Positions 13,967 through 47,154 of a stretch of DNA of 64,000 bases are shown here, piece after piece. The position numbers and the translations under genes are program-made. The notes beneath the pieces were generated by a model, which saw nothing but the letters and a program-made list of their open reading frames with translations, searched no databases and was not told where the DNA came from. The DNA lies in contig JAFEMH010001450.1 of assembly GCA_022495995.1 (NCBI GenBank), positions 62,001 through 126,000 on the forward strand. Reading direction: 5' to 3'. The DNA comes from Adenophora triphylla var. japonica. Lineage: Eukaryota > Streptophyta > Magnoliopsida > Asterales > Campanulaceae. The number at the start of each line of letters is the position of its first letter. Within the stretch, counting starts at the first letter, position 1.

Positions 13967-14833
13967 TGAGTACTTCGGACGGATCGAAAGTAGCGTATGA
14001 CGCGTAAATCGAGACAAAACGGAGTTTAGAGAGTGAGAGTGTTACCAATAGCTAGGTATTGACTCTTTGGCTCAGGAGGACGTATACGGGGTACGATTTG
14101 GTGGTTGGAAGGTGTATCGGAAGTGTTTGGCTCGTGTTTGGTCGGAAAACGTGGTTTTCATGCAAATCGAGGCATTTTCGGGGCTCGAGAAGGGGTTTGG
14201 TTGGCAGGAACCATGGGGTATGGCTGAGAGTAATAAAATTTTTGACCTCATTTACTGAAGGGGAGGGGCTATATTTATAGGGGGTGAATTTGAAGAACAG
14301 GCCGGCCGGCCCTTTCCCCATTTTGAGGGACTTTTGAGATATTTTGGAAATTGCTGGGACTGGCTGAGGATTGCTGAGGCTGGCGATTTATCCTGAAGAA
14401 CAGGCCGGCCGGCCAGTTACTCAATTTTAGGGGTATTTTGGACTTTTCACCCTTGAATTTCATTGATGGAGATGTGGGAGGTTGTGCATGTGTGCCACGT
14501 GTCTAGCTTAGTCGCTAAGATTGTGATTTTGCTTCGTTAATCCCAGTTTTGACTATTTTCTAAATAACTGTCCGAGAAAATGTCCGGAACAGTCCCGGAA
14601 AGTCCCGAAAATTGCGTATTTCGAGAAAAGTGGTACTTTTACGTGTGATAACGTGTGTTGAGTACACTTTGGAATCTGGATGCACGAGGCAGTCCTGGGA
14701 AGTCTCGTTGACTTGGAAAGGGAGAGTTAACGGATTCCGGTTAACTTGGAAAGGGCCAGTTAACGGATTCCGGTTAACTTGGAAAGGGCCAGCTAACGAA
14801 TTGTAACGATCCGGATTTAGGTACTCACACACA
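13967..14833 (-). repeat. LTR-F: partial Tat-type LTR
   Basis: On the minus strand it starts TGTGTGTGAGTACC and then AAATCCGGATCG, resembling the Tat-A LTR start (TGTAAGTA.., CCAATCCGGATCG). A minus-strand TATAAATA sits at 14280-14273. Two copies of GGCCGGCCGGCC (14300 and 14403), each preceded by GAAGAACA, lie just upstream. The left end is cut by copia-1, and the rest should be left of the window. The right edge is placed where Tat-A RNase H coding sequence starts. Minor 27-bp direct repeats (GTTAACTTGGAAAGGGCCAG type) lie at 14720-14800. Confidence 0.7.
14273..14414 (-). promoter_or_regulatory. LTR-F promoter: TATA box and paired GGCCGGCCGGCC dyads
   Basis: A perfect 12-bp palindrome GGCCGGCCGGCC occurs at 14300-14311 and 14403-14414, 103 bp apart, the nearer one about 20 bp upstream of the minus-strand TATA box. 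Layout and spacing match the Tat-A LTR (108 bp) although the motif sequence differs. Confidence 0.65.
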
Positions 14834-16504
14834 CCCTAATCTCCATAAAGCTAAACTTTGAGGTAACCAACAATGCCATCGAATACGAAGCCTGCGCCGC
14901 CGGACTAGAGACCGCACTCGAAAGGAATGTCCAAGAGTTAGAGGTCTATGGGGACTCAGCCCTGATCATCAATCAAGTTTACAACAAATGGAAAATGATA
15001 GACCCGGGCTTGCAAAAATACCATGCCTGCATGGAAGACCCCATCGCACAATTCAAAGAGGTCACCTTCCACTAACTTGCTAAGAGACCGGAACCGGTTT
15101 GCAGACGCCCTAGCCACCTTGGCTTCTCTCGTGGAAATCCCCGAAGGGAAGGCGCTAAAGCCATTCAAAGTAGGAAGAAAGGAAATTCCTGCCTACTGCT
15201 GCAAAATCGAACTAGAGCCTGAGCCAATGAGCCATGGTACAACCAAATCTACCAATACCTCAAGAACGCGGAGACCTCTTTCATGAACGAAGAAGGCAAA
15301 TGCAAAGAAGGAATCAAAGCCAAGAGCATCGTGGCCCTAAAACGCCTTGCCTCCCACTTTGTCATCCTTGGGGACATGCTATACAAAAAATGCTACCAAG
15401 GAGCGCTCCTCCTCTGCATCAGCAAGGAAAAAGTAAATGGGCTCACGAATGAAGTCCACAATGGGGCTTGCGGTTTCCACATGAACGCCAGAGCCCTGAT
15501 GCAGATCATCCTTCGACTGGGCTACTACTAGATCTCCATGGAGGCAGATTGCATCCACTTTGTCCGAAGCTGCGACAAGTGCCAATGGTTCTTCAACCAC
15601 AACCATCTTCCCCCTCACGATCTCTATTGCATGACCACTCCCTGGCCCTTTGCCACTTGGGGAATCGACGTCATCGGGAAGATCGCTCCGCCCGGAAGCA
15701 ACGGCCACGAGTTCATCTTGGTAGCCATCGACTACTTCACAAAATGGGTCAAAGCTAAGTCCTACAAAGTGCTGACTTCCAAGAAGGTCGCGCATTTCCT
15801 CAAGGAAAACATCATATGCTGATACGGCATCCCAAACGAGGTCATATCTGACAACGGATCTCACTTCGAAGGAGAATGCGACAGACTGTTGGCCGAATTC
15901 AAGATCACACGCCATAAGTCCTCTCCTTACAGGCCGCAAACTAACGACGCAATAGAAGCAGAAAACAAAACCCTCGAAAGGATCATCAAAAATGACCATA
16001 CGAGGACGAGATTGGCCCGAGAAGTTGTACCTGGCACTTTAGGGCTACCGGACATCAGTCAGGACAACCACGGGAGAAACTCCATTCGCCCTGACCTATG
16101 GGATGGAGGCAGTGTTGCCCGTTGAATTGGAAATCCCCTCACTCTGAGTGTTATTGGAAAATGAGATAAACGAAGTCGAATGGCTCCGAAGTCGACACGA
16201 CGAATTTACCCTGCTAGACGAGCGCCGACTAAAGGCCATGGAGCACATCCGAGCCTACCAAAGCAGAATGGCTAGGGCTTTCAACAAGAAAGTCAAATCC
16301 CGAGACATCAGGGAAGGCGATCTGGTACTCAAAGAAAAGCCTCCCACCCGAACCAACCCGCTTGGAAAATGGGAACCAACATGGATCGGCCCGTTCGTGG
16401 TCCAAAAGATCTTCTCCGGAGGTGCTATGAAGCTGACAGACCTAGACGGCAATCCCTTCATGAATCCAGTCAACGGAAGCAAGATTCGCCGATACATTGC
16501 CTGA
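14834..16504 (+). pseudogene. Tat-A RNase H and integrase
   Basis: It begins inside RNase H (IEYEACAAGLETAL, VYGDSALIINQV). The integrase zinc-binding part follows (HNGACGFHMNARALM, CDKCQWFFNHNH). The catalytic core has WGIDVIGKI (D1), VISDNGSHF (D2) and NDAIEAENKTLERI (E). The C-terminal region 16148-16504 contains LLDERRLKAMEHI, FNKKVKSRDIREGDLVL and GPFVVQKIF, and has no chromodomain, as expected for Tat elements. Frame breaks include stops after LRLGYY (15531), after KENIIC (15822) and after KNDHTR, plus a frameshift before 16148. The enzyme would insert cDNA into the genome; all three catalytic residues remain but the frame is dead. Confidence 0.9.
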
Positions 16505-16903
16505 AGAAAATCGACCTTCCTGTCTCCCCGTCACTTCTAAAAAGTGTCGAACTACGGAGACCTGAGCCCCTCAGTCCGGGGGGAACATAGGCAGCCTTCA
16601 TTGGTTCGGTCTAAAAACACACAAAAATAAAAACAAAATGGATGCCAATCAAGGCTCAGATCAATCCAAACACAAAAATTCCAAAAACTGGACGTCGCCA
16701 AGGCTCAGACAAAAAAGCAAGCAAGAGATCCTGCGTCTCAACAAAGCTTTAAAAGTAAATCACAAATCACCATAATTAAAACACTTCTTGATGAGTACAA
16801 GCACAGTCTACTCTCAAGCTCACTAAAAGACAGCTTAAAATATTTAACAAATAATGTGTCTGCAATGCAATGAATGGAAACTTAGGATGTCATTCCGCGC
16901 CAC
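16505..16903. other. Spacer between integrase and antisense gene
   Basis: About 400 bp without coding capacity, probably the shared 3' ends of the sense pol transcript and the antisense DUF7745-like gene. No clear polyadenylation signal stands out. Confidence 0.4.
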
Positions 16904-18402
16904 TCACGCTTGTCCCCTCGCCATTCTTCCCTTTCTTCCCTCGTCCCCGGCGAGTCTTCTTTCGCTCCATGTGAGCCAACTCTCTCTCTCTCTCCTTCCT
17001 AGATCAGGAGTCCTCCCCGTCGGGTCAAACAATCCAGTAGCTCGCAAAGTTTCATTCGCCCGTGCCTCGGCTCGGATCCCTTCCCTGTGAGTCTGCAAAA
17101 GGGGACCCCTCTCCGTCAGTCGGTCAACTCTGGTCTCGTAGTCAAACAAAGCGTCTCCCATAACATTCCGAGGGTTAGACCAGGCTTCTGTACTTCTAAG
17201 GCTATAACTGAGATGGCAATCTTGCCCCAGGATCGCTTCGCGCCTACTCCCCAAAACCACTTGGGTCTCCCCGATATGCTGCTCGTACCAATCCAGGTAC
17301 TCGGTGGTCAACACAACACTCTCCCGATGTCGAAGGAGTACCACAGGAGGGAAAGCGGAATACTTCCATACCCTCAGAAAATAAAGAAAGGCATCTGAAT
17401 CTGTCATAGAGAAAGAAGCTACCTCCATGGTGGTGATGTCTTTCCAGCCCAGCAAATGCTCCTGCCTCATCCCAAACTGTCGAGCAACGAGCGACGGGAT
17501 ATAGAAAGAGGACCAAGACAGCCCCGAAACTCTGACAACATAGGAACCTTCCTGAAAAGCCATCCTAGTCTCAATCCCCCAGTGAGGAACCCACCAACGG
17601 ATCTGATGCGTACCAAGCTGTGCCATCCATCTCTCCCAGGCGGACTGATCCATATCCAATACAAGAGGCCACTGAGCAAACGTCCACGGACTAAAAGATG
17701 TCGGAGACTCAGGCATATCTTGTAGCCTCTCTCGCAACTACAAGGTGAGCAAAACGGGGCTTCCCCCTCCCATGAGCCTATCCCCTGTCGCCAAGTGATC
17801 AATGCCGTGAAGGGTTTCCCCCATAGCCAAAGGAGCAATATCCTCACCGGCTCGGCAATGCCCCACCACATCCAACAAGGCACCGTCGCATACCCCAAGG
17901 GAGATGACCATGAAAAGCGTTGCTATCATGCATAAAGCAAACACATTCCACGAGACATCACTCTCGTCATTACCCATAAATCTCTCGGGTAGTGCAAAAA
18001 TATAAATATGACCAGAATCAAAAGTCATATATTGCGCTTCTTCCAACAAAGTTCGAAGAAAATATGCGAGCCTCACGCTCACGATCGCACCCCCGATCAA
18101 AGGAAGTGAGATGACCTCCACCTCCGGAGTAGAAAATCCTCAAAGGTGGGCATAATCTCATTTTAGGAGAAGTTATACACATGCCTCCTAACATCCCAGA
18201 ACCTATCAGCAGCCTACAACAACTCCCAAACAAGAACTAACTCCTTAAGGGACCAAACCGAGCGGAGTTGAAATCTCACCTCAAAACCCCATTTACTGTG
18301 CCTCATGTGGTGCCGCATCCACATCTTGAGCCGCTCAAGAAAGTGTACTTGCCTATCCTTCGAAAGCCTCGGCAAAATTCTCTGAACAAACGACAAATCC
18401 AT
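16904..18402 (-). pseudogene. Tat-A antisense gene 1: DUF7745-like protein
   Basis: The start is the ATG at 18402 (MDLSFVQRILPRLSKDRQ). The frame continues through a stop after VLVWELL to AADRFWDVRRHVYNFS and NEIMPTFEDF, then shifts to 18121-17738 (GEDIAPLAMGETLHGIDHL). A 277-codon frame 17737-16904 follows with WVPHWGIETRMAF, VVRVSGLSWSSFYIPS and a basic, probably coiled C-terminus. Tat-B carries a homologue with the same order of blocks (RFWDPFHHLFNFSLNEMVPT type, IIPLILSETLHGLDEL). Proteins of this kind are annotated as DUF7745 in plants; function is unknown. It runs opposite to pol and lies just downstream of integrase. A family-specific dyad pair sits 119-172 bp upstream of the ATG. Confidence 0.7.
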
Positions 18403-18520
18403 GACAAAAATGGAGGTTTTTTGAGAAAATGAGGAAGAAGGCTCGAAATGACTGCAAAATGGGGAGATAAGGGAAATCCAGATTTTTAGTAAATCTTATC
18501 CCCTCTCCAAAAGAAAGAAG

Positions 18521-18574
18521 TGTCCGCAATGACCACTTTGCATGCATGAAATGTCCGCGCGAACCACTTTGCAA
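18521..18574 (-). promoter_or_regulatory. Tat-A dyad pair upstream of the DUF7745-like gene
   Basis: Two copies of a 22-bp unit, TGTCCGCAATGAC then CACTTTGCA at 18521 and TGTCCGCGCGAAC then CACTTTGCA at 18552, are 31 bp apart. They match the units in the Tat-A LTR and upstream of its PMD gene. They lie 119-172 bp upstream of the gene's ATG at 18402. No canonical TATA is seen between. Confidence 0.65.
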
Positions 18575-18841
18575 CCTGGCTAAATTTTTCAGCAACTGTA
18601 AAACAGTTGCTGCCCGCAGCAGGACCTTGCACCCGACTGCTCAAAAGCCTTGCCAAAGCCATTTCCAGCTCATGCGACATGCACAAAAATAAAATAAGCT
18701 AGAAACAATTCCTAGGCCAGTCCCCGGAATCACAGATAAATCATTACATCACAAATAAAATGCTTTGCTATGCCAAATACGAGTATTTTATTACATACAA
18801 ATGTCTGTTACAATACAAAAAAAAAGGAAACAAAAGGAGTC

Positions 18842-20907
18842 CTACTCCGAATCCTCATCATCATCGCCCTCTCTTGACGAAAACTCCTGCATCTTGGCAA
18901 ACCCGGGGGTCACCTCCTCATCATCGGAAATCTCGATCCCCTCCTCGATCGAATACTCGAGGTAGTCCGAAGGGTCAAGCCCGGCAAAAGGATCAAAGAA
19001 GGGAAGCGAGGACGAACCCTCACCCTGCGCACCTGACGGAGGGAAGAACTGGTGAAAGGTCTGCGGCCTCCGAAGCTCCGAAGAAGTCCCCGCGTCAAAG
19101 CTATTCCGCTCCCGAACCGGCACCTCAGGCTGTGGGTCCGCCTCGGCCCTGGAAGAAGGAGTATCCACAGACCTCCTCGAAGGCAATGGCTCGAAAGCCG
19201 CCGCACTCCGCGAAGACCCGCAGGACATCTTCCTCAGAAGCTTCTTTGTAAAAGTTCTCAACCCCATATACCGGTGGGTGAGCACGTCGACGGTTCGCCC
19301 CGAGACCTTCACAACAAACAACAAAAGAAAAGCTCAGCAAAAGAGATACAACAAATACTGAGCAAAAGAAAAATATATACAGAAAAGATGCCAAGATGGA
19401 AAAGAGTAAACGAACTCACCGCAGCATCTGGGTCAACCCGATAGGCGGCAGGAGCCCGCTCTGGAATGGGCACCGATACCCTCCTCCTCGAATCCCCACG
19501 AACGCAAGTAAAGTCTGGCCCAGGTACTGAGACATCCGGAGGACGCGACGAGCCAGTCCTCCCCTCCTTCGCCAACACCTGCGGCGTCCTCAGCTTCCGC
19601 CTGACAAAGGCCGAATACTCCTCGCCCTCCAGGACGAACTCCTCGGCGCTCACGCCTGCCCGGTACCACTCGAACTCCAGCAAGTCCATATCAGCCGGAC
19701 TCATCATGCGAAGTGGCGGATCCCTCTGAGCCATAGGGGGAATATCGGCACCATGCTGCCAGAAGACTCTCTCTCTCCCATATACATCGAGTCGCAAGTA
19801 AGGCCCCACAGAAGCTTCCTCTGTCGCGTCACCCATGGGGCACCATCCAACTCATCCTCGCCATACCGAGTCCAAAGGTACAGCTGACACCCCTCCGTGA
19901 TGTCCCTCTCTAAGAATCGTTGTACATCCGCATATGTGACAGTGATCCTTTCCCGGCTCGTCCTCCTCTTCCTCAAAGAGCGAGCCCAGCACAACATGGC
20001 GGAATACCCGAACAAGGCCTCATCCTGCCAATCCCACAGCTGGCATCGGAAGATCTCATAGCACCACGCTTGCCACAAAAAGCAGATAACGCTTAGAGAA
20101 AAGTAAAAGGAAAAGAAAATAGAGAAATGATGAAATGCTAAACTACAAAAGAAAGTAAACTCATACCTCCAGTGCGAAGTCAAAGCACCCCAGGGAGTTG
20201 ACCGCGCCCCAGCTAAATCTGTCCAAGGCAAAGTAGAGCTCGGCCAAGCCCGCCTCTCCCAAGCAATATCACAAACCCGCTCCAAATCCACCAGACTCTC
20301 GAGCAGAGGGAAAAGAGCGGTAGAGGCATGATTCGAGAACAAAGTCTCGAAAAGGGTAAACCACAGAAATGAGTGCGCCAGCTGCTCCGCCGACACTACC
20401 CCAGTACCCCGGCTATACTCCCCAATGTTGGCAGTAATCTTCGCCTCCACATCATGGTACACCATACCCAAGCCCTTACGGGGCCAAGGTGTAAAGCCAA
20501 GCAGCTCGGTCAACAGCTCATCGGACATCTGGTCCCTCCATTTCACTGACTCCCCCTTGAAGGACAGCCCGGTGATGGCAGCAAAATCCGTGGAAGTCAC
20601 CGTCATCTCCCCCCCAGCTAAAGTGGAAGGTGTGCGTAGTATCCCACCAATACTCAGACAAGGCCAGAAAGACACCCTTGTTCTTCTGCGTCTCCGCCAA
20701 CCCGGCCAAGTTCTCCACGAACACATTCAATCCGGAAGCAATAACCAGCCTCCGAGGGCTAGGTCTCCCATCCCGGGAGATGTCAGGCATGTTCCTCCAT
20801 ACCTCAACCACGGCCTCCAGAGACCCCCACGACTTCATCCTTTCCGCCTTCCTAGATGAAGGCACCTCATCACGCAGGTAAACACAGCAAAAGTACGTCA
20901 ATAACAA
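18842..20907 (-). pseudogene. Tat-A antisense gene 2: plant mobile domain (PMD) protein
   Basis: Pieces in order on the minus strand. 20907-20600 has LALSEYWWDTTHTFHFSWG. A frameshift leads to EMTVTSTDFAAITGLSF, the PMD signature, then FLWFTLFETLFSNHAS and CDIAWERRAWPSS. A probable GT..AG intron follows (about 20165 to 20065; the exon resumes AWCYEIFRCQLW). Then comes YLWTRYGED and, after another shift near 19790, RERVFWQHGADIPPM and the EFEWYRAGVSAEEFV block. A last exon at 19324-18842 ends in an acidic tail (IEISDDEEVTPGF, DDDEDSE). PMD proteins are plant proteins related to MAIL1/MAIN and are often carried by transposons. Tat-B has a homologue. Several frameshifts make this copy a pseudogene. 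Confidence 0.8.
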
Positions 20908-20939
20908 TACTTAATGAATATACAAAAACAAAGATGATA

Positions 20940-21219
20940 ACACATTTCATTCACACAAAAAAAAACATAGACCGTACCAACACGGCAATTTCCCACACAA
21001 GGGTTCGTCCCTCCACAAATACATTTTCAAAAAGAAACCAAAAGGGTCCGTCCCTACACAAATTTTCCAACACAATGGATCCGTCCCTACACAAACTTTT
21101 CAAAACAAAGGGATCCATCCCTACACAAACTTTTCAAAACAAAGGGATCCGTCCCTACACACATTTTTCCAACAAAAGGGATCCGTCCCTACACACAATT
21201 TTTCAAACAAAGGGATCCG
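20940..21219 (+). repeat. Tat-A 3' region array 1, left part
   Basis: Tandem units of about 33-35 bp built on GGGATCCGTCCCTACACA followed by a TTTTCAAAACAAA-like spacer, from about 21000 to 21219. The array continues after the MITE at 21578. Confidence 0.8.
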
Positions 21220-21423
21220 CAGGCCCGGCTTTTACATGGTGCAAGAGGGTCCTTTGCACAGGGCTCCAAATTTTGGAGGGCCCCCATTTTATCTAGGCCC
21301 ATTAGGTATATAGCTTCTCATAAAAAAAAAAAAGTAAAGTTGTGTCGAAAAGTAATGATCAATGTAATAAATTATTTTTGAATTTTATTGCTTAATTTTG
21401 TAAAACTTTAATCTGTATATAAA

Positions 21424-21498
<75 letters not shown>

Positions 21499-21577
21499 TT
21501 TTTGTATTAATTTTTAAACATTAGGGACCCAATATTCACATTTCGCACATGGCCCCTATAATTATTGAGACGGCCTG
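21220..21577. mobile_element. hAT-like non-autonomous element (358 bp)
   Basis: The ends are CAGGCCCGGCTTTT (left) and, on the other strand, CAGGCCGTCTCAAT (right). They are flanked by an exact 8-bp duplication GGGATCCG (21212-21219 and 21578-21585), diagnostic of hAT transposition. It has no coding capacity. The interior holds a (TA)n tract at about 21428-21493 and the GGGCCCCC/AGGCCC style common in plant hAT MITEs. It splits tandem array 1. Confidence 0.88.
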
Positions 21578-21720
21578 GGGATCCGTCCCTACAAGCATTT
21601 TTCCAACACAAAGGGATCCGTCCCTACACGACACATTTTCAATAAGGGATCCGTCCCCACGCGACACATTTTCAACAAGGGATCCGTCCCCACATGACGC
21701 ATTTGCAATGAAGGTTTGTC
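21578..21720 (+). repeat. Tat-A 3' region array 1, right part
   Basis: The GGGATCCGTCCC units continue after the MITE with more divergent spacers (ACGACACATTTTCAA). Degenerate GTCCGT units run on to about 21830. Confidence 0.75.
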
Positions 21721-22079
21721 CTTACACAACACATTTTCAAACAAAAGTCCGTCACAAAAACACGGCACATTTCACACAATTTCCCCACACAAAGTCCGTT
21801 CCTACACGGCAATTTTTTCCACAAAAAATCATGTACATACAAAAACAGCATCAAGGTACAAGTCACCAAAGCATGCATTTCAAGGAGAGGCACTTTATTT
21901 TCACAAATAAGAGCTAAACTCCACATTTTTTGACAAAACTCACATACCCACAATCCCTACACATCCAATTTCAACAAATCAACATCAATTTCACAAATTG
22001 ATCATGGCAACAATAAAAGTCCCAAATTGCGAAAACTAAAACCCTAGTTCTAGCATACACCATTTCAAAGCAAGAATTA

Positions 22080-22270
22080 AAACAAAAATTTTATTTTTTT
22101 AACTCCATTACCGTCCTCCCCCGCAAAGTGTGCACCCTCGCATCCGGATACAATTCATCCGGATTGATTATTGAAGGTGCGAAGGAAGAAAAATTCCTTT
22201 GGAGATCCAACCTCTTCTCTATGGCCTCTCGGCCCCTTTGACGATGACCTCGCCTCAATCTTTCCGCTAT
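22080..22270 (-). other. Possible first exon of the Tat-A PMD gene
   Basis: An open minus-strand segment begins with ATA at 22270 (followed by GCGGAAAG; perhaps a decayed ATG) and reads AERLRRGHRQRGREAIEKR, then SIINPDELYPDARVHTL, stopping near 22080. Its position, 164 bp downstream of a dyad pair, matches the first exon of the Tat-B PMD gene at 42862. No sequence similarity to that exon was recognised, so this is positional inference. Confidence 0.35.
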
Positions 22271-22433
22271 GATAGTAATCTAGCGACTTGGAAGGGTTTT
22301 CTCGAGAAAATTTGGCTCAAAAATTGAATTTTCTTCTCCTCTTCTTTCTTCTCCCTCGACTGGAAATTGAAAATTGAAAGGTAATGGCGTTTTTGAAATC
22401 TGATTCTGGTTAAGAAATCCAAATTTGCAAATG

Positions 22434-22486
22434 TGTCCGTGCGGACCACTTTACAATGTAAGTGTATCCGCACGGACCACTTTGCA
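22434..22486 (-). promoter_or_regulatory. Tat-A dyad pair upstream of the PMD gene
   Basis: TGTCCGTGCGGAC then CACTTTACA at 22434, and TATCCGCACGGAC then CACTTTGCA at 22465, 31 bp apart. The unit and spacing are the same as at 18521/18552. Confidence 0.65.
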
Positions 22487-22674
22487 GCCCAGACAAAATC
22501 CTTCTTTTGCCCTTATAATTTTTGCCCTTAGTCGTCCAAACGCCATTTCCAGCAAAATCAATGCAGTTTGGTCCCTAAACCAACAAAACAAACACCGACC
22601 GTCATCGTAATCCCGGATCTCGCCAACTAAACGGAAAAACAAACACCGGCCGTCATCGTAAGTCTGAACCCCAA

Positions 22675-22810
22675 GGCGCACACGACTTCAAACACAAATC
22701 CCAAGACGTAAACGCCTTCAAACACAAATCCCAAGGCGCAAACGCCTTCAAACACAAATCCCAAGGCGCAAACGCCTTCAAACACAAATCCCAAGGCACA
22801 AATGCCTTCA
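22675..22810 (+). repeat. Tat-A 3' region array 2 (30-bp units)
   Basis: About five tandem copies of a 30-bp unit containing CCCAAGGCGCAAACGCCTTC. GGCG...CGCC forms a small dyad in each unit. Confidence 0.85.
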
Positions 22811-22944
22811 AAATAAACAAGTCATTTCCCAGGCAGCCATCGTAAGCCCGAACTTTTCCCCAGATGACAAAAAACAAACACAAGGTAAGCACGCCTCTCA
22901 AAAATCAAACACAAGGCAAGCACACCTCCCAAAAATCAAACACA

Positions 22945-23150
22945 AGGCGAGATGCCCCAAGGAACAGTCTCAACACAGGGTGAGAGGCCCCAAGGAACAG
23001 TCTCAACACAGGGCGAGATGCCCCAAGGAACAGTCTCAACACAAGGCGAGACGCCCCAAGGAACAGTCTCAACACAAGGCGAGACGCCCCAAGGAACAGT
23101 CTCAACACAGGGCGAGATGCCCCAAGGAATAGTCTCAACTCAGGTCGAGA
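22945..23150 (+). repeat. Tat-A 3' region array 3 (33-bp units)
   Basis: About six copies of a 33-bp unit (GCGAGATGCCCCAAGGAACA plus GTCTCAACACAGG). Because 33 is a multiple of three, the array is open on both strands (MPQGTVSTQGE repeats on plus, LRLFLGASR repeats on minus). I treat this as a by-product, not a gene. Confidence 0.85.
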
Positions 23151-23319
23151 TACCTCAGAATTGCTCTTACTTAGGTCGAACGCCTACAAATAGTTCCCCA
23201 CAGGTCGAGGCCCCTCAAAAATTGTCCTCACACACGAACTACGATCAGGCTTGATTCCCTTTCGGGATACGTAGGAATCTTATCAAAGGGTTTAGCCATC
23301 CGACCTCAGCGGTCACCCC

Positions 23320-23760
23320 AGGACACCGACACGTCCACATCACCTCAGGACACCTTCACGTCCACACAACTTTCACTCAGGAATCCAACACGTCCTCACA
23401 AAATCTCAGTCAGAGGACACGACCACTTCCTCATACACGACAAACTCACCTCACACACGAACAACGATCAGGATTAATTCCCATTCGGGATACGTAGGAA
23501 TCCTATCAAAGGGTCCAGCCATCCGACCTCAGCAGTCACCCCAACACACCGACACGTTCACCTCACTTCAGGACACCAACACGTCCGTCTCACATCAGGA
23601 CACCGACATGTCCACCTCACTTCAGGACACCGACACGTGCACCTCACTTCAGGACACCAACACGTCCACCTCACATCAGGACACCGACACGTCCACCGCA
23701 CTTCAGGACACCAATACGCCCACCCAAATTTCACCCCAAGACAACGACACATCCTCACCT
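23320..23760 (+). repeat. Tat-A 3' region array 4 (CAGGACACCGACACGTCCAC units)
   Basis: Irregular tandem units of about 27 bp based on CAGGACACCGACACGTCCAC and CTCACTT, from 23320 to about 23760. A longer internal duplication, ATTCGGGATACGTAGGAATC, occurs at both 23263 and 23484. Confidence 0.8.
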
Positions 23761-24061
23761 ATGACCAACATGGTCACCTTCCCTCTCCCGACAAGCGATC
23801 CAGATCAGGACCCTTATCTTTATCGACGACCCCACTTTCTTCATAAGTGACGTCGCCAAGGGCTTCTGTAAGTAATCCAATTCGGATCGCTCCCCATCCG
23901 AGCACACGTGAAACACCGCGGACTCACAAAAACGTGATCCCGAAAACCCGTAACCTCCAAAAAGTCCAAAACCACCAACCAAACCAAGGTAGGACCCTTC
24001 CGGGATAAAATAAAATAGAAGGACTTTTGGGGAATTACAAAAAATAGTCCGCCTGCAAAAG

Positions 24062-24212
24062 TGTCCGCAGTGACCACTTTGCAGGGTGAAAATAATCATG
24101 AAAAAATCCCCTTAAAGTCCACAATATTCTCTCAAATCCAGGAAAACCAAAAAATTGGTTTTGCATAAGTGTCCGCGCGGAACATATTGCAGTTTTTCTA
24201 GGCCTATAAATA
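24062..24212 (+). promoter_or_regulatory. Tat-A LTR promoter: dyad pair and TATA box
   Basis: TGTCCGCAGTGAC then CACTTTGCA at 24062; TGTCCGCGCGGAA then CATATTGCA at 24170 (108 bp apart). TATAAATA follows at 24205, 13 bp after the second dyad unit. Confidence 0.7.
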
Positions 24213-35895: not shown

Positions 35896-36089
35896 TATTC
35901 CTTCCACCTTAAATCATACTTATTTTCCTTTTTATTTGTCCTACCTAAAATTGAACTACTCGAAATAATGACAAAAAATCTTCAATATTTCTCCTATTAA
36001 TTCTTTATTACACTTTACTTTTATAATTACAACACCAATCAACTTATTATTCATCTTACTCATTCTATCTCATACTTTATGATCGAGTC

Positions 36090-36830
36090 AAAATTAGATT
36101 TGGTCAATCTAGTCGAAATTAGCAGATCGTAAACCTGGATTTGCATCAAATAAGCCTGAAATAGATAAACAAACAATACAACTAAGTTAGAGCTTTACCA
36201 ACGAATGTCCTCTAGGGTGAGAGTAAGTTTTGGGGGGAAAATAAGAAAAGAATTAAGAGAAAAATATTAGAAAATAGAATATACCTGATTTGGATTTAAG
36301 GTCTCTTATTTATAGGTGATCAGTGGAGTAATACTTAAAAATAGGAATTAGAACTGGAGTTGTATTAGGAAAGCGAATCCTAGCCGGGATTAGAATCCTG
36401 GGGAAACTGAAATCCTTATTGAAATAGGATTGCCCGAGCACAACCCTGCTCGGTTGATGGGTCCTCTCCTCGGCTTGAGCCGAGGACCAAGGTCCCTAGA
36501 CAAAGTTGTCAGTGAAGTACTCTTCTTAAGAAACGTGCTCGTGCTCGGTTGGCCTAACGAGCTCACCTTTATGCCAATCATCATTTGACCAGCTTATTTC
36601 CCATAGTTTCTGAGGGGACTGGGTCCGAGCTCATGCTCGTTAGTTGGGGCCTCCACACGAGCCTGCCCAAGCTGATACTTGGGCCACCACGTACTAGGAC
36701 CCGAGCAGGCCTCCACAGGCTAGGACACGAGCAGGCACTTAGGTTATTCCTTTCAGTGGCCTCCTATTTTATACTAAAGGAAGGGGGGAGTATAGAAAGC
36801 ATATAAGTCGACAACATGCTCGTTTGGGTT
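36090..36830 (-). repeat. Probable LTR of element C (boundaries approximate)
   Basis: A minus-strand TATAAATA at 36314-36307 and two CpG dyads upstream of it, CCGAGCA/TGCTCGG (36434-36453) and CTCGGCTTGAGCCGAG (36470-36485), resemble the LTR promoters elsewhere. It borders a Transposase_28-like frame on the plus strand, as in the antisense-gene layout of the Tat elements. Ends not resolved. Confidence 0.45.
36434..36485 (-). promoter_or_regulatory. Element C dyad pair
   Basis: CCGAGCA then CAACCC then TGCTCGG, and CTCGGCTTGAGCCGAG. Dyad centres are about 34 bp apart, 120-175 bp upstream of the minus-strand TATA. Confidence 0.45.
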
Positions 36831-37082
36831 GTTGGACACAACCAAATGGGCGGAGGTGGAATGCCAAGAGGCTTCGTGAGGGCAAAGCACGTGGGGGACA
36901 TTTGGTGCCTACTTTGGTGCATTTTGATTTTCAAAGGGCGCCATCATATCTTTTCATCATTACTGAGCGGGAAACGAGATTTGACATTCCTTCTTGGGAA
37001 GGCGCGCTCTTAAATGCCAGCACTGTGGTCGAGTTCCCAACCCGTTAACTCGATTGTGACCCGCGAACTGAATCCGGGTTGG

Positions 37083-39590
<2,508 letters not shown>

Positions 39591-39625: not shown

Positions 39626-40530
39626 TGTAAGTACCCCAATCCGGATCGCTCCCCATCCGACACATGGGAAACACTGCGAACTCACACAAATGTGATCCCG
39701 AAGACTCGTAACCTTTATAAAGCCCAAAATCACCAACCAAACCAAGGTAGAACCCTTCCGAGATAAAATAAAACAAAAGGACTTTTTGGGAATTACGAAA
39801 AAAAAGTTCAGTCTGCAGGAGTGTCCGCTCGGAAACTTTTGCAACTAGACATCATCATGGAAAAAATCCCCTTAAAGTCCATAATATTACCTTAAATCCG
39901 AGAAAACCAAAAAAATGGTAATGTCATAGGTGTCCGCGCGGACACTATTGCAGTTTTCTTGGGCCTATAAATAGAGGGCTCCCCCTCTCATATTTTTCAC
40001 TCCTCCCTTCTCTCCTCTCTCCGCCCCGCCTTCAGGCTCCCCTCTAAGTCCTTCCGAGGCAATCCCGGTCCCTTTCGGTCCTTCCCGGGGCCTTTCGAGC
40101 CCTCACGAGGCGCTCCGAAGCCCTGCCGAGCCGTCCCAAGATGCTCCCGAGCCATTTCGAGGCACTCTCGAAGCATCCCGAAGCCCTGCCGGTCCATCCC
40201 GAGACATTCTGGTTCATCCCGAGCCATTTCGATCCATTCCGAGGCATCCCGGTTCATCCCGAAGCCCTGCCGAACAATCCAGAGGCATCCCGATGCACGC
40301 CAAACCTCTGCTCGAGTACAACCAACAATCCCAAGGCACGCCGAACCTCTGCCCGAGTACAACTAACAATTCGAGGCACGCTGAACCTCTGCCCGAGTAC
40401 AACCAACAATCTCGACGCACGCCGAACCTCTGCTCGAGTACAACCAAAAATCCCGAGGCACGCCGAACCTCTGCCCGAGAACACACCTAGCACTCCCGAG
40501 GCACGCTGAAGCTCTGTCCGCAGACACCAG
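39626..40530 (+). repeat. Tat-A-type LTR (LTR-A2), 5' 905 bp, interrupted by Tat-B
   Basis: Begins TGTAAGTACCCCAATCCGG and follows the 23867 LTR through the dyad units (39822, 39931), TATAAATA (39966-39973) and the internal array (40240-40530). It breaks at GCAGACACCAG where the Tat-B LTR starts. Its 3' part is expected to the right of the window. It lies in the element C gene region. Confidence 0.85.
39822..39973 (+). promoter_or_regulatory. LTR-A2 promoter: dyad pair and TATA box
   Basis: TGTCCGCTCGGAA then ACTTTTGCA at 39822; TGTCCGCGCGGAC then ACTATTGCA at 39931 (109 bp apart); TATAAATA at 39966. Confidence 0.7.
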
Positions 40531-40902: not shown

Positions 40903-41610
40903 TATTTGTTTTTGTTTTTAGAGTCGCCACCTACATTATTGATTGAAAATATAGAAAAATCATTTTTTGAAAGATTTTGAGTTCGGGGCTTAAGTTATGG
41001 AGTGGGAAGGTCAAGGAGCACTCATTCCACCCAATCCGGAGATTGGTCTTGCTAAAAGGGGGGTTTTCAAAGAAAAAGACATTTTTAAATAAACAAGTAA
41101 AAAGATCCATTTAACGAGGTTAAACGAAATATAGGATCGATTGCTTCGAGACCGTCCCCATGATTTGGAGAGGCTTTAGGCCGATCCTAGGTTCACTATG
41201 CTATACCACTCCAATAATCAATTAGAAAGGAAGGAAGATTACCTTTTTGAGAAGAGATTCGGACAGAGTTTTGACTCAATCCTAGATTTGGACTTCAATG
41301 TTTGGTTATCAACAAGGTTGATAAACAAACTTTAGGTGATTTAAGGTGATTTTTGTAGAAATTTTTCAGGAAGAGAAACCCACAAAATGTGTGTGTATGG
41401 TGTTTTGATCAGGGATCCGGGGGTTGAAATACTAGAAATCATCAAGTATTTATAGGAGGTTGGAGAGGTAAATGTGGATTGGGATACCACACTAGGAAGG
41501 TTCCAGAACTCAAATGTTATTGGAGAACCGGATGATGATAAGTACCAAGAGAGAGGTTGAAATCGACGAGGAAACTAGTTTTTGCATGCCTGCAGGAGCT
41601 TAGTCTCGAC

Positions 41611-41646
41611 TCTCGCGCGAGATAGGCTATGTCTCACGCGGGACAA
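41611..41646 (-). promoter_or_regulatory. Tat-B LTR dyad pair
   Basis: TCTCGCGCGAGA (perfect palindrome) at 41611 and TCTCACGCGGGACAA at 41632, 21 bp apart, about 160 bp upstream of the minus-strand TATA box. Confidence 0.6.
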
Positions 41647-41989
41647 GGCTGCTCTGGATAATTTTGTCCTCCCCTCGTTATCTCGTATGCATTTTAGTCC
41701 AAACTAACGGATGGTCGAGCCGCATGGCTTCCTACGTATCTCTATCGGAGAATCAGACCAAAACGTAGTTCGACTCCAAAACACGACAAGGCTACTTTAG
41801 GTATTTTGAAAATTATTAGAAAATCGAGGAGATTTTATTTTTGAAAAGGCAAATTCATACTGAGGAATCAAATCAAGACCCAATTCTGAATATACATGTC
41901 TGTCTGAAGATTCGCCTGTTTGGGCTCCGAACCTATGGGGAAATATGTTAGAAAACAAAGGCTTACCTGTCCAGTCCTTTGCATCCTGT

Positions 41990-42370: not shown

Positions 42371-42660
42371 TGATGGAGTGGTTTACTGTCTTCGACCAAA
42401 CAAGCGGTAATTCGCCTATCTGGGTTCCGAATTATGCTGAATGAATTGATCTCTGGATCAATCATTTCGGGTGACTGGATGCTGTATCGGGTGATTGTGC
42501 GCATGCCAGGTTCGGCTTGTTCCGTAACTTGCGGTACCAATTTCTTCATGTTTCCTTGCTAGGGTATCATTTCCAAGGGTAAATGGGTCAAAATTTTGAA
42601 TTTTGACGTTGCGTAGACGCTTATTATCGAGGACAATTTTGTACTTTTCCAGGGGGTTTG

Positions 42661-42694
42661 TCTCGCGCGGGACAACTTGTATCGCGCGGGACAA
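42661..42694 (+). promoter_or_regulatory. Tat-B dyad pair upstream of the PMD gene
   Basis: TCTCGCGCGGGACAA at 42661 and TATCGCGCGGGACAA at 42680 (19 bp apart), 168-201 bp upstream of the ATG at 42862. An AATAAAATA stretch (42709) follows. Confidence 0.65.
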
Positions 42695-42861
42695 GCACTG
42701 TCGAGGCAATAAAATATCAGCTGTATGTGTATTTCAAAACACCCATTTCAAATTTTTCTCTACAAGTCCGAACCAAAGGCATTTTCTCTGTGATTTCTTG
42801 TGTGGTGTTCGTTGATTTCTCTCTTCAATCAATCTCACAATCTCCCCTTCTTCCATCATCC

Positions 42862-43797
42862 ATGGCTCAAGAAAGGAAAAATTCGATTTTTGGGAGTCAT
42901 TTGCTTGGGAAGGATTATCCCCAGGACGACCACACGTTCGATCGGCCTTCGCATATCTCCCATGCTATCCGCGAGGGTTTGGTAAGAATGTCTTTCTTTA
43001 TCTCATTTCATGCTTTTCATTGCATCAAACCCATTGCTTGAAATCCCCAAATTCATCCATTTGGTCATTTTTCTAGAACTTGGTTCTATTGTTGCATGTT
43101 TTGAGTCTCGTTGATTTTGTTAGATGTTGTTGTTGCATTGGCGTGTGTATGAGTTCCTTACATATCTTGGATTGTAGGAGGGATCGATTTGGGTAGCCAA
43201 ATGCATCCTTGAACATGACTTTCTAGTGTGAACGCCAAGTGTTTGATGAAATGCCTCAATGAAATTTTTCTCTTATTTCCTTGAAGTTTTTGCTAGGGGT
43301 GATTTCTGACATTGCTCCTTTATCTTTTCTCTGTTTTGCAGCCGTATAGGGTGTCCAAGAACTGTCGTGGTAGTGCCAAATTTGCCAAGCTTTGTGGGAC
43401 AAAGTCAAGGATTTGAACGGAGTCCGGGCTAGGGTGGCTCAGATGCGGCTCCTTAATTTTGTTGATAACATCCGGGGGATGAGGCGGACTCCTTAAGTCC
43501 TTCAAGCTATTAGGGAGAGGTGGTGGTACACTACCCACAGGGTCCACCTTCGCTTCGGGGAAGCTACGATGACCTCTACTGATTTTCTTGCTATTACTGG
43601 GTTGGAGTTCACCGGCGTTGCTCTTCCGAAGACCGAGGGCTTCAAACCTGTGAATCCAGCTGAGTGGCGACGGTTGATTGGCTTTGCCCCTAACAAGGTT
43701 AAGGGATTTACTGCTGAGTTGTCGCCTCTTTGCGATCAACTCTTGGCCTATGCTGATAAGCCTAATGCTGAGACGGATCGGTTGGTGAGGCGTTGAA
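42862..43797 (+). pseudogene. Tat-B antisense gene: PMD protein, 5' half
   Basis: ATG at 42862 (MAQERKNSIFGSHLLGKDY, ending AIREGLV before a GTAAGA donor at 42981). After an apparent intron (3' end TTTTGCAG at 43341) an exon carries several stops. In its final frame it reads VLQAIRERWWYTTHRVHLRF, GEATMTSTDFLAITGLEF and NPAEWRRLIGFAPNKVKGF, the PMD signature also in Tat-A (VTSTDFAAITGLSF). It is cut at about 43797 by solo LTR-D and continues at 45384. Role of PMD proteins in transposons is unknown. Confidence 0.8.
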
Positions 43798-44153
43798 TGT
43801 GCGCTCGCCCGAAAAAATTGGTAAAATGAAGGAGTCGCCACGCCATGCTTTTAGAGGTGCACTTTGAAAAACCTTTTGAAAGAGAATGGGTCCGGGGGTC
43901 AGGTTACGTGTTGGGAAGAACCGAGAGTTCACCCAACACGCCTCGTCCGTAGACGAGTCTTTCTAATTTAGACATCCAAATAATTCAAAAAAATGTGCAA
44001 ACAATGATAATAGGCAAGTGCGATAAACATGAATTTTATTGAACAAATGAGATTATTACAACTTGTAGACCAATTGATCAGGGAGGCCACATCCCATTAC
44101 AGCAAAGAGAACAGATTACAACTGAAACCAAGTCTTCTGCAAAGGACCACTTA

Positions 44154-44422
44154 TGTCGCGTGACACAGGACTCCTCATGTCCAAATGTGTCGCGTGACAC
44201 CAATAGTCACCTTGCAGAGACTTACAACACTCAGATTACAGAGATCTCTAATGAACACAAAAGCACAATTACAAACTAGATCTGAACATAAGACAACCTA
44301 ATCACATCAACTGAAAGATAAACTAGCTAGCTAACAATTTACAACTGAAGGTTGATCCCTGCAGATGGGCACGATGTGTCGCATGACACAGGACTCCTCA
44401 TGTCCAAATGTGTCGCGTGACA
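44154..44422 (-). promoter_or_regulatory. LTR-D downstream dyad pairs (duplicated block)
   Basis: TGTCGCGTGACA at 44154 and 44188, TGTCGCATGACA at 44377 and TGTCGCGTGACA at 44411. Both pairs are 34 bp apart with the same intervening GGACTCCTCATGTCCAAA, so one pair is a copy of the other (offset 223 bp). Confidence 0.65.
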
Positions 44423-45045
44423 CATGTTTACCATCTGCAGGAACCTTACAACTGAGAAACAGATCCAACAGATACCAAGTTAAATCAGTCAATTATACCA
44501 GAATCAATCAGAATAACATGAATCAGATACAGATCAATCAAAGGAGTATGGATATGGGAAATCCACACTCCCTTGACATCCAAATTGCAATTATAAATAG
44601 ATCACATCATGAACATGCAATTGGACTCAAGTAAACACGATTTAAACAGAGAGATTGCAGTTGCCACTTGATAATCTGAGGCAGATGGAGCCTGATTATC
44701 AAGTGGAGAAGAAGGAAGCACAATGAAACAAATAGAAGAGAGAGAGAGGGAAGGAAATGTCACCCTTGTAGTCCTCAACTTCCACACCAAGTTAGGTGCA
44801 AAAGCCTTCGATTCAACTTCTGAAGTGGAGATCTAGACACGAACTGAGAGCTGAGGTGAGGTCTTCAAGGTGTTTGGGGAAGTAGGAGGGTAATTGGGTA
44901 GGAGGTGTGTGAAGGATGAGGGAAATAGAGGGTAATTGGGTGGTTTTTGGTGATGGAGGAGGAGAGAGAGAGGTTCTGGGGTAATTTGTGCAGAGTGACA
45001 TTAGGAAGTCGAAATTGGGATCTCAAACTGAGAGGAGTAGGGTCT

Positions 45046-45148
45046 TATTTATAGCTGTTGGGTCTTATTTATAGCTGCTAATCATGGTAACCTTATGTCG
45101 CACGACACTCTGTAACCACTTTCCAAGGCTTCGAGTTGTCGCATGACA
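45046..45148 (-). promoter_or_regulatory. LTR-D promoter: dyad pair and two TATA boxes
   Basis: TGTCGCACGACA (45096) and TGTCGCATGACA (45137), 41 bp apart, sit 23 bp upstream of the nearer minus-strand TATAAATA (45073-45066). A second TATAAATA lies in a 20-bp tandem duplicate (45053-45046). Confidence 0.65.
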
Positions 45149-45383
45149 GGAGATGCCACCAACCGTTTTTGACGCCAAATCTGATTCTGGAACATTCTTG
45201 GATAATACCTGAAAAGTCCAAAACAGATTTATTCCTCTTAGGTCCCTTGGTATGAGCAAAGTACAAAAAAGTACTTCCTTCGCGAGAAACTTATGAAATG
45301 TTTCCGGAAGTCTCGAAATAGACCGGGAATTTACCAAAATGCCCCTAAATGCAATTTTATCATATTAAAATGCATCTGGAAAG

Positions 45384-46726
45384 GTCGCGAATTGGATTGG
45401 CGTACTTACAGGCGTGCTCTCTGGTATATCTTATCAGAGACCATCTTTGGTAACCATTCCTCCACGGCCTGCCTTGCTCTCTTAGGGCTGCTGGAGGATC
45501 TGGACCTGGTGAGGACCTATGACTAGGGCTCAGCCGGGCTGGCTTTCTGCTATTATGCCATGGATGAGGCATGTAGGCATACCAGGGATACCATGTTAGG
45601 GTATTCCTACGCTTGGGAGGTATGTTTTCTGTCTTTCCTTGTCGTTTATCTGTACATTTTGCATGTGCTTTGTACTGAGTCTGCTCTGTTTTCTAGTACA
45701 GATGTGGGGGTACGCCATCTTTTCATTGCACAAGATTGAGCTGGATGATCGTGATCCTAAGTTTTCGAATATCAGGAGGTGGAGCCATTCCAACCGGACC
45801 GTGGACGAGGAGGCGGGGGAGGACTGGACCCTGACCATTTAGGAGGCGTGGGCCTTGCTGGATAGCTTCGAGTTTGAGCGGGTGGGCCTGTACCTGTGGG
45901 CCTTATTGGAGTGAGAGGTTTACCGTGTATGGGACGTCACCAATGTACAAAGGATCTTGGTATTACTGGACGGGGATACCATGTATATAGGTGAGAGAGT
46001 CTTCCCTCAGCATGGCCGGGGTTCACTTCCACGGAGAGTGCCGGAGGATCCGCCCAGGGCGATGCATCCTACCCATTTTATCCCTGATGGGTATTATGCC
46101 AATTTCATGAATGGCTATGAGGCGACAGATTGTGTGGTCCGAGGGGCTTCATATGAGGAGTTCTTGCCTCACTTGATGGGTCCCCTTTTGGTAGGCGGCA
46201 GGCGGTCACGTGCTCGAGCTTCTTCTTCTGCCTCTGCATCAGGCTCGTCAGCCCCAAGCTCTTCATCACAGTATGCGGGTCCTGTACCTCTTGTGCCGGA
46301 CTATGGTCCTCCGAGCTACACATAAATGATTGGAGGTATGCAGATGGTGGGTCATATTGCAATCTCGGATCAGATTCCGAAGGGTTATCGTCGCCCTCCC
46401 TATGCATCTTCGATACATTTCTGTTTATACTGTTTCCCGTATCGTCCATATATGTGTTTATGTCCAACTTCCTCTGAGTATCTCTCTTTATCTAATAGGT
46501 CATTATGTCCGCGGAGGATTATGACCGCAGTGCGAGTAGGATAGCCAGCTTGATGGCCATGGTGTCGGATCTGTCTGAGAGGCTGTTTCAAAAGGCAGCT
46601 TCGGCAGCGTCGATGATAGCCTCTGCAGTGACCCCCTCTTGTGGAGCCAAGCGATCAAGGAGGGATGGTAGCCCCGGCGGCGGTGATGAAGGAGGTGTTG
46701 GCAGCTCGAGGAATTTGATGGCATGA
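45384..46726 (+). pseudogene. Tat-B antisense gene: PMD protein, 3' half
   Basis: It resumes with GRELDWRTYRRALWYILSE, TIFGNHSSTACLALLGLLED and CYYAMDEACRHTRD. A clear intron follows (GTATGT at 45621 to TCTAGTACAG at 45700). The next exon begins MWGYAIFSLHKIELDD and, past a stop, GDTMYIGERVFPQHGRG, AMHPTHFIPDGYYANFM and CVVRGASYEEFLPHL with a serine-rich tail. A last exon at about 46505-46726 reads DYDRSASRIASLMAMVSDL and ends SSRNLMA. These blocks match the Tat-A copy in order (AWCYEIFRCQLW, RERVFWQHGADI, EFEWYRAGVSAEEF). Stops after TYD (45526) and after DWTLTI (45842) mark it as decayed. Confidence 0.8.
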
Positions 46727-47058
46727 TCCCCTTTTTCTTTCCCCCCATTTATCTCTTGAGAACTTGTAAATATTGGCCGGGTTGGCCCAGACAATTTTCT
46801 TTTCTTGTACCTGTTAGCAAGTAGGTAGCACAACAACAAAATTTTCTTAATTCCTAATCCTAGGTCTAATTAATTTTTTAACTTTCTCGACTTCCGTGGT
46901 GGAATGAAACGACCAATTTAGGTCAAGATTTTGAGCCTTGCTTTGATGCCTGTACTGCATATTAGGAACTATATTTGCAGGTTTCGAGACTTGCTTCGTC
47001 AAGTCGGGGCTAGATCATTCATTTGTGCAGGAGGGCTGCTGATTTTTCCGAAGGGTTG

Positions 47059-47154
47059 TATCGCGCGGGACAAGGTGTCTCGCGCGAGACATGCTACTCA
47101 GGAAGAGTTTTTTTCTTCTTCGAACAGGATTCTGCCAGTTTTCCCTTATATAAA
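47059..47154 (+). promoter_or_regulatory. Tat-B dyad pair and TATA box upstream of the DUF7745-like gene
   Basis: TATCGCGCGGGACAA at 47059 and TCTCGCGCGAGACAT at 47078 (19 bp apart), then TATATAAA at 47147, 100 bp before the ATG at 47254. This is the most complete promoter layout for an antisense gene in the window. Confidence 0.7.

Follow-up and report, generated by a model that had tools for sequence, protein, structure and literature searches.

A stretch of 64,000 nt from Adenophora triphylla var. japonica (GCA_022495995.1, contig JAFEMH010001450.1, positions 62,001-126,000 of the forward strand; hereafter the window) was analyzed for short CpG-rich palindromes (dyads) at the promoters of long terminal repeat (LTR) retrotransposons and of their accessory genes. 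The window is made up of nested plant LTR elements, whose LTR starts, primer sites and TATA boxes were set from the window sequence. Ten LTR TATA boxes (Tat-1, LTR-F, copia-1, Tat-A, Athila-like, LTR-G, Tat-A', Tat-B, LTR-D and copia-2) were chosen from 18 after sequence inspection; the ends of the LTR-G and Tat-B LTRs are not fixed, and the lineage names are labels derived from primer site and accessory genes rather than from trees.

Organization of the elements

The accessory genes lie antisense between pol and the 3' LTR, which is the Tat/Ogre-type plan. In Tat-A, an integrase-end-like open reading frame (ORF; called by eye, with no Pfam match) extends to 16504 and is followed by the minus-strand accessory genes and by the LTR from 23864 onward. 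In Tat-1, the gag-pro ORF and one LTR are on the minus strand, and a DUF7745-like and a PMD-like gene, both on the plus strand, precede the other LTR. The plans of Tat-A and Tat-B are mirror images (antisense DUF7745-like gene, antisense PMD-like gene, tandem repeats and LTR), the pol of Tat-B lying outside the window, and their accessory genes were homologous in small-database blastp comparisons (E 5e-7 and 5e-6 for the PMD pieces, 1.5e-6 and 4e-6 for those of DUF7745). The Tat-A PMD-like gene matched Pfam PMD with E-values of 1.1e-5 and 8.3e-5, both under the curated cut-off, and would have its exon 1 at ~22.2 kb together with a repeat-rich intron; the PMD-like gene of Tat-1, like that of Tat-B, is homologous to it. 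LTR-D is a solo LTR with GGCGT on both sides, situated within the Tat-B PMD-like gene.

The copia-1 and copia-2 elements are related. An RVT_2 match (E 7e-78) was obtained for copia-2, and its LTR/primer junction, CA-AGTGG-TATCAAAGC, is close to the published Sirevirus junction, CA/ATTGG plus TATCAGAGC. The 3' ORF of copia-2 matched no Pfam family and is related to a 3' ORF of copia-1 (tblastn E 9e-10). No relatives of the copia-2 reverse transcriptase or of the Tat-1 gag-pro ORF were found in viral contigs.

Paired dyads at the LTR promoters

Dyad pairs were present in seven of the ten LTRs of the window, a smaller share than the "nearly every LTR" of the preliminary description. Copia-1 (a single GTCACGTGAC plus AACCGC repeats) and the Athila-like LTR (a single GGCGGCCGCC) had no pair, and LTR-G had no dyad. 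A position upstream of the TATA box, also claimed earlier, was found in five LTRs at a nearly constant distance, the proximal dyad lying 23 bp from the TATA box in Tat-1, 20 bp in LTR-F, 23 bp in Tat-A, 20 bp in Tat-A' (where the palindrome is longer) and 22 bp in LTR-D; the remaining LTRs depart from it, as detailed below. The site centers were spaced by 31 bp in both Tat-1 pairs and in both Tat-A accessory pairs, by 109-110 bp in the Tat-A LTRs, and by 41, 34 and 34 bp in LTR-D.

The motifs were mostly element-specific. The exact counts in the window were six places for TCCGCGCGGA, three forward plus one overlapping reverse for TGTCCGCGCGGAC, one for TCTCGCGCGGGACAA, three for TGTCGCGTGACA, two for GGCCGGCCGGCC and 11 for GGTCGACC, every one of the last in copia-2. 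Three families of Tat cores can be read as TGTC and GACA separated by four (D), six (A) or eight (B) positions. LTR-F and Tat-A have a common layout with unrelated motifs. Strict family specificity was nevertheless contradicted, since Tat-1 and Tat-A, whose LTRs are alike only in short stretches, have the TCCGCGCGGA core in common.

Several null models were used to ask whether chance or mutation in LTR sequence that is rich in CpG and in repeats could have produced the dyads. CpG-rich palindromes numbered 48 in the window, each overlapping one being taken separately; the Markov model gave a mean of 17.8 (standard deviation 4.1). In a dyad-blind test, based on 39 palindromes defined by a fixed rule, an upstream range of 250 bp and a shift null, 7/10 LTR TATA boxes had a CpG palindrome upstream (shift mean 1.36, P = 0.0008), as did 3/6 accessory starts (P = 0.033), one of these three being an unrelated AT-rich palindrome. 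Over all 18 TATA boxes, a palindrome edge was located 15-30 bp upstream in four, with 0.17 expected (P = 0.0001). A blind search for two similar near-palindromic CpG 12-mers, 14-120 bp apart, recovered 13 paired-dyad groups in the window and none in 50 Markov shuffles. Twelve were in LTRs (Tat-1, 2; LTR-F, 1; LTR-D, 1; copia-2, 8) and one was ahead of the copia-2 3' ORF; the eight copia-2 groups are not independent because they are partly tandem repeats, and the Tat-A and Tat-B pairs were missed because they require more mismatches.

With mismatches allowed, the motifs were largely confined to their own territories: the A/1 core gave 11 matches (null 0.9), ten of them in Tat-1, Tat-A or Tat-A'; the B motif gave six (null 0.1), five in Tat-B; the D motif gave eight (null 2.7), six in LTR-D; and the copia-2 motif gave 18 (null 0.45), 17 within copia-2 at up to three mismatches. 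The two matches of the F motif did not exceed chance (null 0.9), and repeated CpG 6/7-mers, when simply tallied ahead of the TATA boxes, were no more frequent than in the background. These last two results are the ones in favor of chance, an explanation that the window statistics, the matrix transfer test and the genome copies (see below) render hardly credible.

Dyads ahead of the accessory genes

The preliminary description had also placed each element's own dyad ahead of the accessory genes of Tat-A, Tat-B and copia-2, and this was borne out in the window and, for Tat-B, also in further copies across the genome. All four accessory genes of Tat-A and Tat-B were preceded by a dyad pair with the motif of their own element (Table 1), and the first 18-mer of the pair at the Tat-B DUF7745 promoter was identical to the second site at the PMD promoter. 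When the part of the window outside the Tat-B LTR was scored with a matrix built from the two Tat-B LTR sites, the four Tat-B accessory sites took ranks 1-4 and outscored all 40 shuffles. With a matrix built from the two proximal Tat-A LTR sites, the four Tat-A accessory sites took ranks 2, 3, 6 and 7, with Tat-1 sites at ranks 1, 4 and 8 and one coding match at rank 5. A matrix from all four Tat-A LTR sites was weaker, recovering two accessory sites (ranks 1 and 3), for which 2 and 8 of the 40 shuffles did as well. Two sites, the distal one of the Tat-A LTR (24066) and one of those at the Tat-A DUF7745 gene (18528), are more than three bases off the motif and were recognized by eye from their flanks. 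The Tat-A dyads (18513-24192) stand between TGCA arms (TGCAAAGTG...CACTTTGCA), in a unit of ~31 bp.

Related elements change their motif at the LTR and at the accessory gene together, AACCGC being used by copia-1 and GACCGCA by copia-2. The copia-1 LTR had ten copies of AACCGCY and the copia-2 LTR 14 of GACCGCA, grouped in both cases into one cluster in U3 and one in U5, and neither motif was present in the LTR of the other element; 19/22 window copies of GACCGCA were within copia-2. The four highest-ranking matches of the copia-2 LTR matrix were two sites in gag and then the two sites ahead of the 3' ORF. The gag sites are two copia-2-type dyads (TGTGGTCGACCGCA and TGTGGTCAACCACA, 72 bp apart) in the coding region at 51984-52069.

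Table 1. Positions of the dyads and of the associated LTRs and accessory genes in the window.
Feature	Position	Strand	Details
Tat-1 LTR	5190..6935	-	TGTAAGTGCCCC... up to just before the TGGCGACTCC primer site at 5189
Tat-1, second dyad pair	5529..5570	-	31-bp spacing; ~1.1 kb downstream of TATA, same LTR
Tat-1 LTR promoter pair, GTCCGCGCGGAC / ATCCGCGCGGAT	6648..6690	-	Centers 31 bp apart; 23 bp upstream of TATA 6624-6617
copia-1 LTR	12467..13966	-	Related to copia-2; no dyad pair; AACCGCY x10 in two LTR clusters
LTR-F, GGCCGGCCGGCCTGTTCTTCA twice	14300..14414	-	Spacing 103 bp; TATA 14279 lies 20 bp downstream of the proximal copy
Tat-A DUF7745-like antisense accessory gene, broken	16904..18402	-	Homology to Tat-B copy; Pfam sub-threshold, E 0.017
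Tat-A dyad pair, second site degenerate	18513..18575	-	Units 31 bp apart; ahead of DUF7745-like gene, ATG 18402
Tat-A PMD-like antisense accessory gene	18842..22300	-	PMD match 19704-20910; homology to Tat-B copy
Tat-A pair, GTCCGTGCGGAT / GTCCGCACGGAC	22425..22487	-	31-bp spacing; ahead of antisense PMD-like gene
Tat-A LTR sites	24052..24192	+	Degenerate site centered at 24066; TGTCCGCGCGGA centered at 24176; TATA 24205
Tat-A' LTR sites	39814..39945	+	Site centered at 39828 (2 mismatches); GTGTCCGCGCGGACAC centered at 39937; TATA 39966
Tat-B LTR dyad pair	41610..41646	-	21 bp apart; 156 bp upstream of TATA 41454
Tat-B dyad pair before antisense PMD-like gene	42658..42694	+	19 bp apart; ATG 42862
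Tat-B PMD-like accessory gene	42862..46325	+	Broken; interrupted by solo LTR-D (43794-45410)
LTR-D further pairs, downstream of TATA	44154..44422	-	44154/44188 and 44377/44411; each 34 bp apart
LTR-D promoter dyads, TGTCGCACGACA and TGTCGCATGACA	45096..45148	-	Proximal dyad 22 bp upstream of TATA 45073
Tat-B dyad pair before DUF7745-like gene	47056..47092	+	19 bp apart; TATATAAAC at 47147; ATG 47254
Tat-B DUF7745-like accessory gene	47254..48204	+	Pfam DUF7745 E 0.0014, below cut-off; cut by copia-2 insertion
copia-2 LTR U3 dyads, TGCGGTCGACCACA and variants	48416..48611	+	5 sites, before TATA 49029
copia-2 LTR dyads downstream of TATA 49029	49596..49924	+	Four pairs (8 sites) with an internal spacing of 24 bp, in ~97-bp tandem repeats
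copia-2 pair, CGGTCGACCG	55700..55743	+	At 55702 and 55732, 30 bp apart; ahead of 3' ORF 55797-56312

Predictions for the DNA left of the window

Expectations for the DNA to the left of the window were set down before it was read, and they largely held, with a failure for the pair at the Tat-1 PMD-like gene. The Tat-1 DUF7745-like gene (contig position 57240 onward; tblastn E 9e-67 to Tat-A) lies in this outside region and is preceded by two TCCGCGCGGA copies 31 bp apart, ~110 bp before the ATG. Both pairs recur with the 31-bp spacing in the other Tat-1 LTR (98.0% identical); in one of them each site has lost a CpG, and in the other a single site is altered. As predicted, the copia-1 3' ORF carries the copia-1 motif, with AACCGC at 59, 75 and 91 bp upstream (a 16-bp step) and five more copies at 298-440 bp, and GACCGCA was absent from that 10-kb piece.

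Recurrence in the host genome

The Tat-B, Tat-A and Tat-1-type motifs were counted in the 2.48-Gb assembly that holds the window. The Tat-B 18-mer gave 498 + 540 = 1038 matches with up to one mismatch, and its reversed control gave none. Among 100 listed exact places, 80 were examined (two of the remaining ones are the window itself) and classed by flank matches, the dyads being left out of the query: 39 were DUF7745 promoters, 27 were PMD promoters (66/80 together) and 14 had other contexts. The partner site was at +19 in 39/39 DUF7745 copies, and at -19 in 26/27 and -18 in one of the PMD copies; a TATA-like box followed the pair at 53-57 bp in 35/39 DUF7745 copies.

The Tat-A 16-mer gave 288 + 323 matches on the two strands, where a palindromic site can count twice, against 1 + 0 for the control. 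The 20 loci looked at were all Tat-A-type LTRs, 18 of them with two sites 107-110 bp apart, and an exact TATAAATA was found 23 bp past the end of the proximal core in 16/16 loci with both present. Perfect TCCGCGCGGA pairs with a gap of 10-40 (Tat-1 type) occurred at 1439 places (control, 0); among the 50 listed, the center spacing was 31 in 42, 33 in six, 32 in one and 30 in one, and the spacer letters differed. The earlier observation is largely real and holds in the host genome, where this candidate operator syntax at promoters is found genome-wide.

Candidate operators and their proposed readers

From the arrangement of the sequences, we consider it likely that the dyads are DNA-level promoter operators that co-regulate the LTR and the accessory promoters. 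A dimeric sequence-specific protein would bind two similar sites at a fixed spacing and act on the core promoter a fixed distance downstream. With its own operator repeated at the LTR and at the accessory promoters, each element would switch gag-pol transcription jointly with its accessory genes, which in Tat are antisense, as a small regulon. The positions, pairing and spacing of the sites, their recurrence in the genome and the change of motif in step at LTR and accessory gene were all observed directly; protein binding, a dimer, coordinated control and a sign of the effect are what we infer from them. The interpretation of the preliminary description, a sequence-specific and perhaps element-encoded protein co-diverging with its sites in a regulatory or anti-silencing circuit, is partly supported: the promoter-linked pairs, mostly specific to one element and repeated ahead of its accessory genes, agree with it, and the element-encoded reader and the anti-silencing action are putative.

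Several observations weigh against the operator proposal. The Tat-1 PMD-like gene has one dyad without a partner where a pair had been predicted. The LTR dyads of Tat-B lie 156 bp from the TATA box and those of copia-2 hundreds of bp from it, and the further sites downstream of TATA within the LTRs of Tat-1, LTR-D and copia-2 are unexplained. Elsewhere in the genome, the 14/80 Tat-B 18-mers are away from accessory promoters; nine of these have TTTATAA 79-173 bp downstream and possibly represent a further LTR family using the same dyads. The genome copies share descent, and therefore attest recurrence and constraint rather than independent events. Partner sites differed by 0.11 per base, compared with 0.03-0.5 in the flanks (15 loci), and so were not uniformly less variable; within-site covariation was absent among copies (66 partner sites; P = 0.99 and 0.46); and dyad CpGs were kept between Tat-A and Tat-A' in 4/5 cases vs 7/17 for other CpGs, a non-significant difference (P = 0.31). 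Lastly, LTR-G and the TRP28-type (Transposase_28) gene had no dyad in common at the accessory promoter, and were set aside for this reason.

As to the reader of the operators, we tentatively propose an element-encoded PMD-type protein, that is, a closed circuit in which a PMD- or DUF7745-like protein made by the element binds the dyads, controls its own gene, and activates or de-silences the LTR, protein and site co-diverging as in VANC/VANDAL. Such a circuit fits the three Tat elements, all of which retain the two accessory genes with a dyad of the element ahead of each, and the concerted motif shifts that related elements show at the LTR and the accessory gene. It is also consistent with the in-frame DUF7745 pieces of Tat-1 and Tat-A, which have the core in common and are 39-55% identical, vs 31-41% to Tat-B; plain descent explains this pattern equally well because only three elements are involved. 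Retand TRP28 proteins are predicted to bind DNA, and the Grande accessory protein is nuclear (PMC11963269). Conversely, no DNA-binding homologue was obtained: the PMD ORF gave no PDB matches, and the DUF7745 ORF gave two non-significant ones at E ≤ 1. A large protein collection yielded no homologues of the PMD ORF at E ≤ 0.001. Among Sireviruses, moreover, four without ENV still bear the motifs, and distant ones have nearly identical motifs (PMC2829016).

Host transcription factors, either a different one for each family or a host site class made of CpG palindromes, are an alternative that is only slightly less plausible. A comparison of the Sirevirus motifs with PLACE gave mainly stress-related sites (PMC2829016). 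In our test of 22 hand-chosen sites against 11 consensuses of known factors, used in place of a curated transcription factor library, the CAMTA CGCG-box fitted 5/7 Tat-A/1 and 3/5 Tat-B sites, and the ARF core TGTC was present in 13/16 A/1, B and D sites. However, none of the 11 consensuses fitted all five motif groups and none fitted F, several distinct factors would need one common layout, and a common binding factor was not found for the Sirevirus motifs (PMC2829016). The consensuses for G-box, E2F, FAR1, ERF, DRE, HSE, LBD and TCP occurred in 0/22 of the listed sites.

The pairs could instead act as RNA or single-strand hairpins that affect the genome RNA or feed small RNAs and silencing. 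RNA folds of 7/11 pairs beat all 200 shuffles and three more beat all but 3-7 (z -2.1 to -7.6), partner sites pair with their neighbor at 0.71-0.75 of positions (0.79-0.88 with G-U), and the LTR palindromes of maize Sireviruses are small-RNA hotspots (PMC5311732 and PMC10760457, citing Bousios 2016). Two copies of a palindrome pair by construction, however, the Tat-A DUF7745 pair has no fold (z +1.07), and a constant distance to TATA is not expected of hairpins, which makes this explanation improbable, even if the copy tests on the 66 partner sites do not separate it from the dyad reading. One of the downstream pairs of LTR-D is located within a 76-nt imperfect inverted repeat (44140-44215; fold z -5.2).

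Relation to known systems

The preliminary description knew of no earlier account for Tat or SIRE elements, which does not hold for SIRE. Bousios et al. (2010; PMC2829016) described palindromic CpG motifs upstream of TATA in 13 Sireviruses, and again before ENV in the nine that have it (77/79 linker copies), and proposed a regulatory function. As here, the sequence varies by element, and the sites precede the LTR TATA box and recur ahead of a further gene, there ENV; the copia-2 pair before the 3' ORF has the Vitis consensus, CGGTCGACCG, as its core. The Sirevirus motifs were reported as specific to Sireviruses among Ty1/copia, with at least eight copies and, except in Tnd-1, a CGG-CCG core; the element sets found described there belong to Ty1/copia alone. 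In copia-2, the palindromic motif is repeated upstream of TATA in the LTR (five sites), the core is exact in CGGTCGACCG and has one change in the LTR copies (TGCGGTCGACCACA), and there are 17 matches. The Tat sites differ in their cores (CCG..CGG in Tat-A/1; neither B nor D has the Sirevirus core), in being paired at fixed spacing and in preceding antisense genes; their copies in linker plus 3' LTR are fewer than eight (Tat-1 has three before the accessory genes and four in the other LTR).

No report of Tat operators was found in the literature searched, most subscription papers being outside its reach. The SIRE half is already published, and one operator syntax across the LTR and the antisense genes of Ty3/gypsy Tat appears to be new; it extends to an unrelated superfamily what was reported as special to Sireviruses and would tie LTR and antisense accessory genes into one regulon. 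Among Tat-type elements, Grande is also reported to transcribe an accessory gene, whose product is nuclear, from a promoter of its own (Gomez-Orte et al. 2013, cited in PMC11963269). The TRP28 ORFs of Retand (Vicient 2025; PMC11963269) are likewise antisense between pol and the 3' LTR, with a proposed regulatory role and family-specific tandem repeats; they are TRP28 rather than PMD or DUF7745, and operators were not found described in the text searched. PMD has been reported for 57% of the Ogre elements and Transposase_28 for 23% of those of Retand (PMC6317226), and PMD-A1/A2 were placed in Gypsy elements (Ikeda 2017; PMC5418596).

VANC proteins of VANDAL transposons (Hosaka et al. 2017; PMC5735166) act through short non-coding motifs that, as here, differ between related elements. 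There, binding and demethylation were demonstrated, the elements are DNA transposons and the motif (YAGTATTAY) is non-palindromic; the parallel is one of logic only. MAIN/MAIL1 and the DOWN motif (PMC7156037) similarly tie PMD proteins to a promoter motif, although these are host genes and direct binding was not shown there. A broader proposal, which we regard as unlikely at present, is that the orphan plant mobile domain superfamily (PMD, DUF7745 and perhaps TRP28) comprises regulators of LTR retrotransposons whose targets are the paired CpG dyads of their own LTRs and promoters, protein and operator co-diverging between families, as a retrotransposon counterpart of VANC; if so, host MAIN/MAIL1 would be domesticated operator-readers. 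The sites offer a concrete and inexpensive way to assay PMD-type proteins for DNA binding, and a route to look for arms-race turnover of LTR-element operators.

Other features of the window

A CGAGC/GCTCG array is located at 36430-36830, upstream of the LTR-G TATA box and beside the opposite-strand Transposase_28 ORF; CGAGC occurs 11 times in 36080-37100, with 1.2 expected. Near a Transposase_28-type ORF, a peptide at 38900-39100 strongly matched rpoC2 and is probably a chloroplast DNA insert. An Rfam snoR71 match at 29296-29402, in the gag region of the Athila-like element, was barely over the cut-off and may be due to chance. CACTA elements are DNA transposons with short CpG-containing repeats at their ends, the subterminal repeats being bound by TnpA. 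One such element, with tnp2, DUF4218 and DUF4216 matches, occupies 56289-64000, its end falling within the copia-2 3' ORF, and carries GAGACGG/CGTCTC subterminal repeats and a 28-bp palindrome at 56440-56467.

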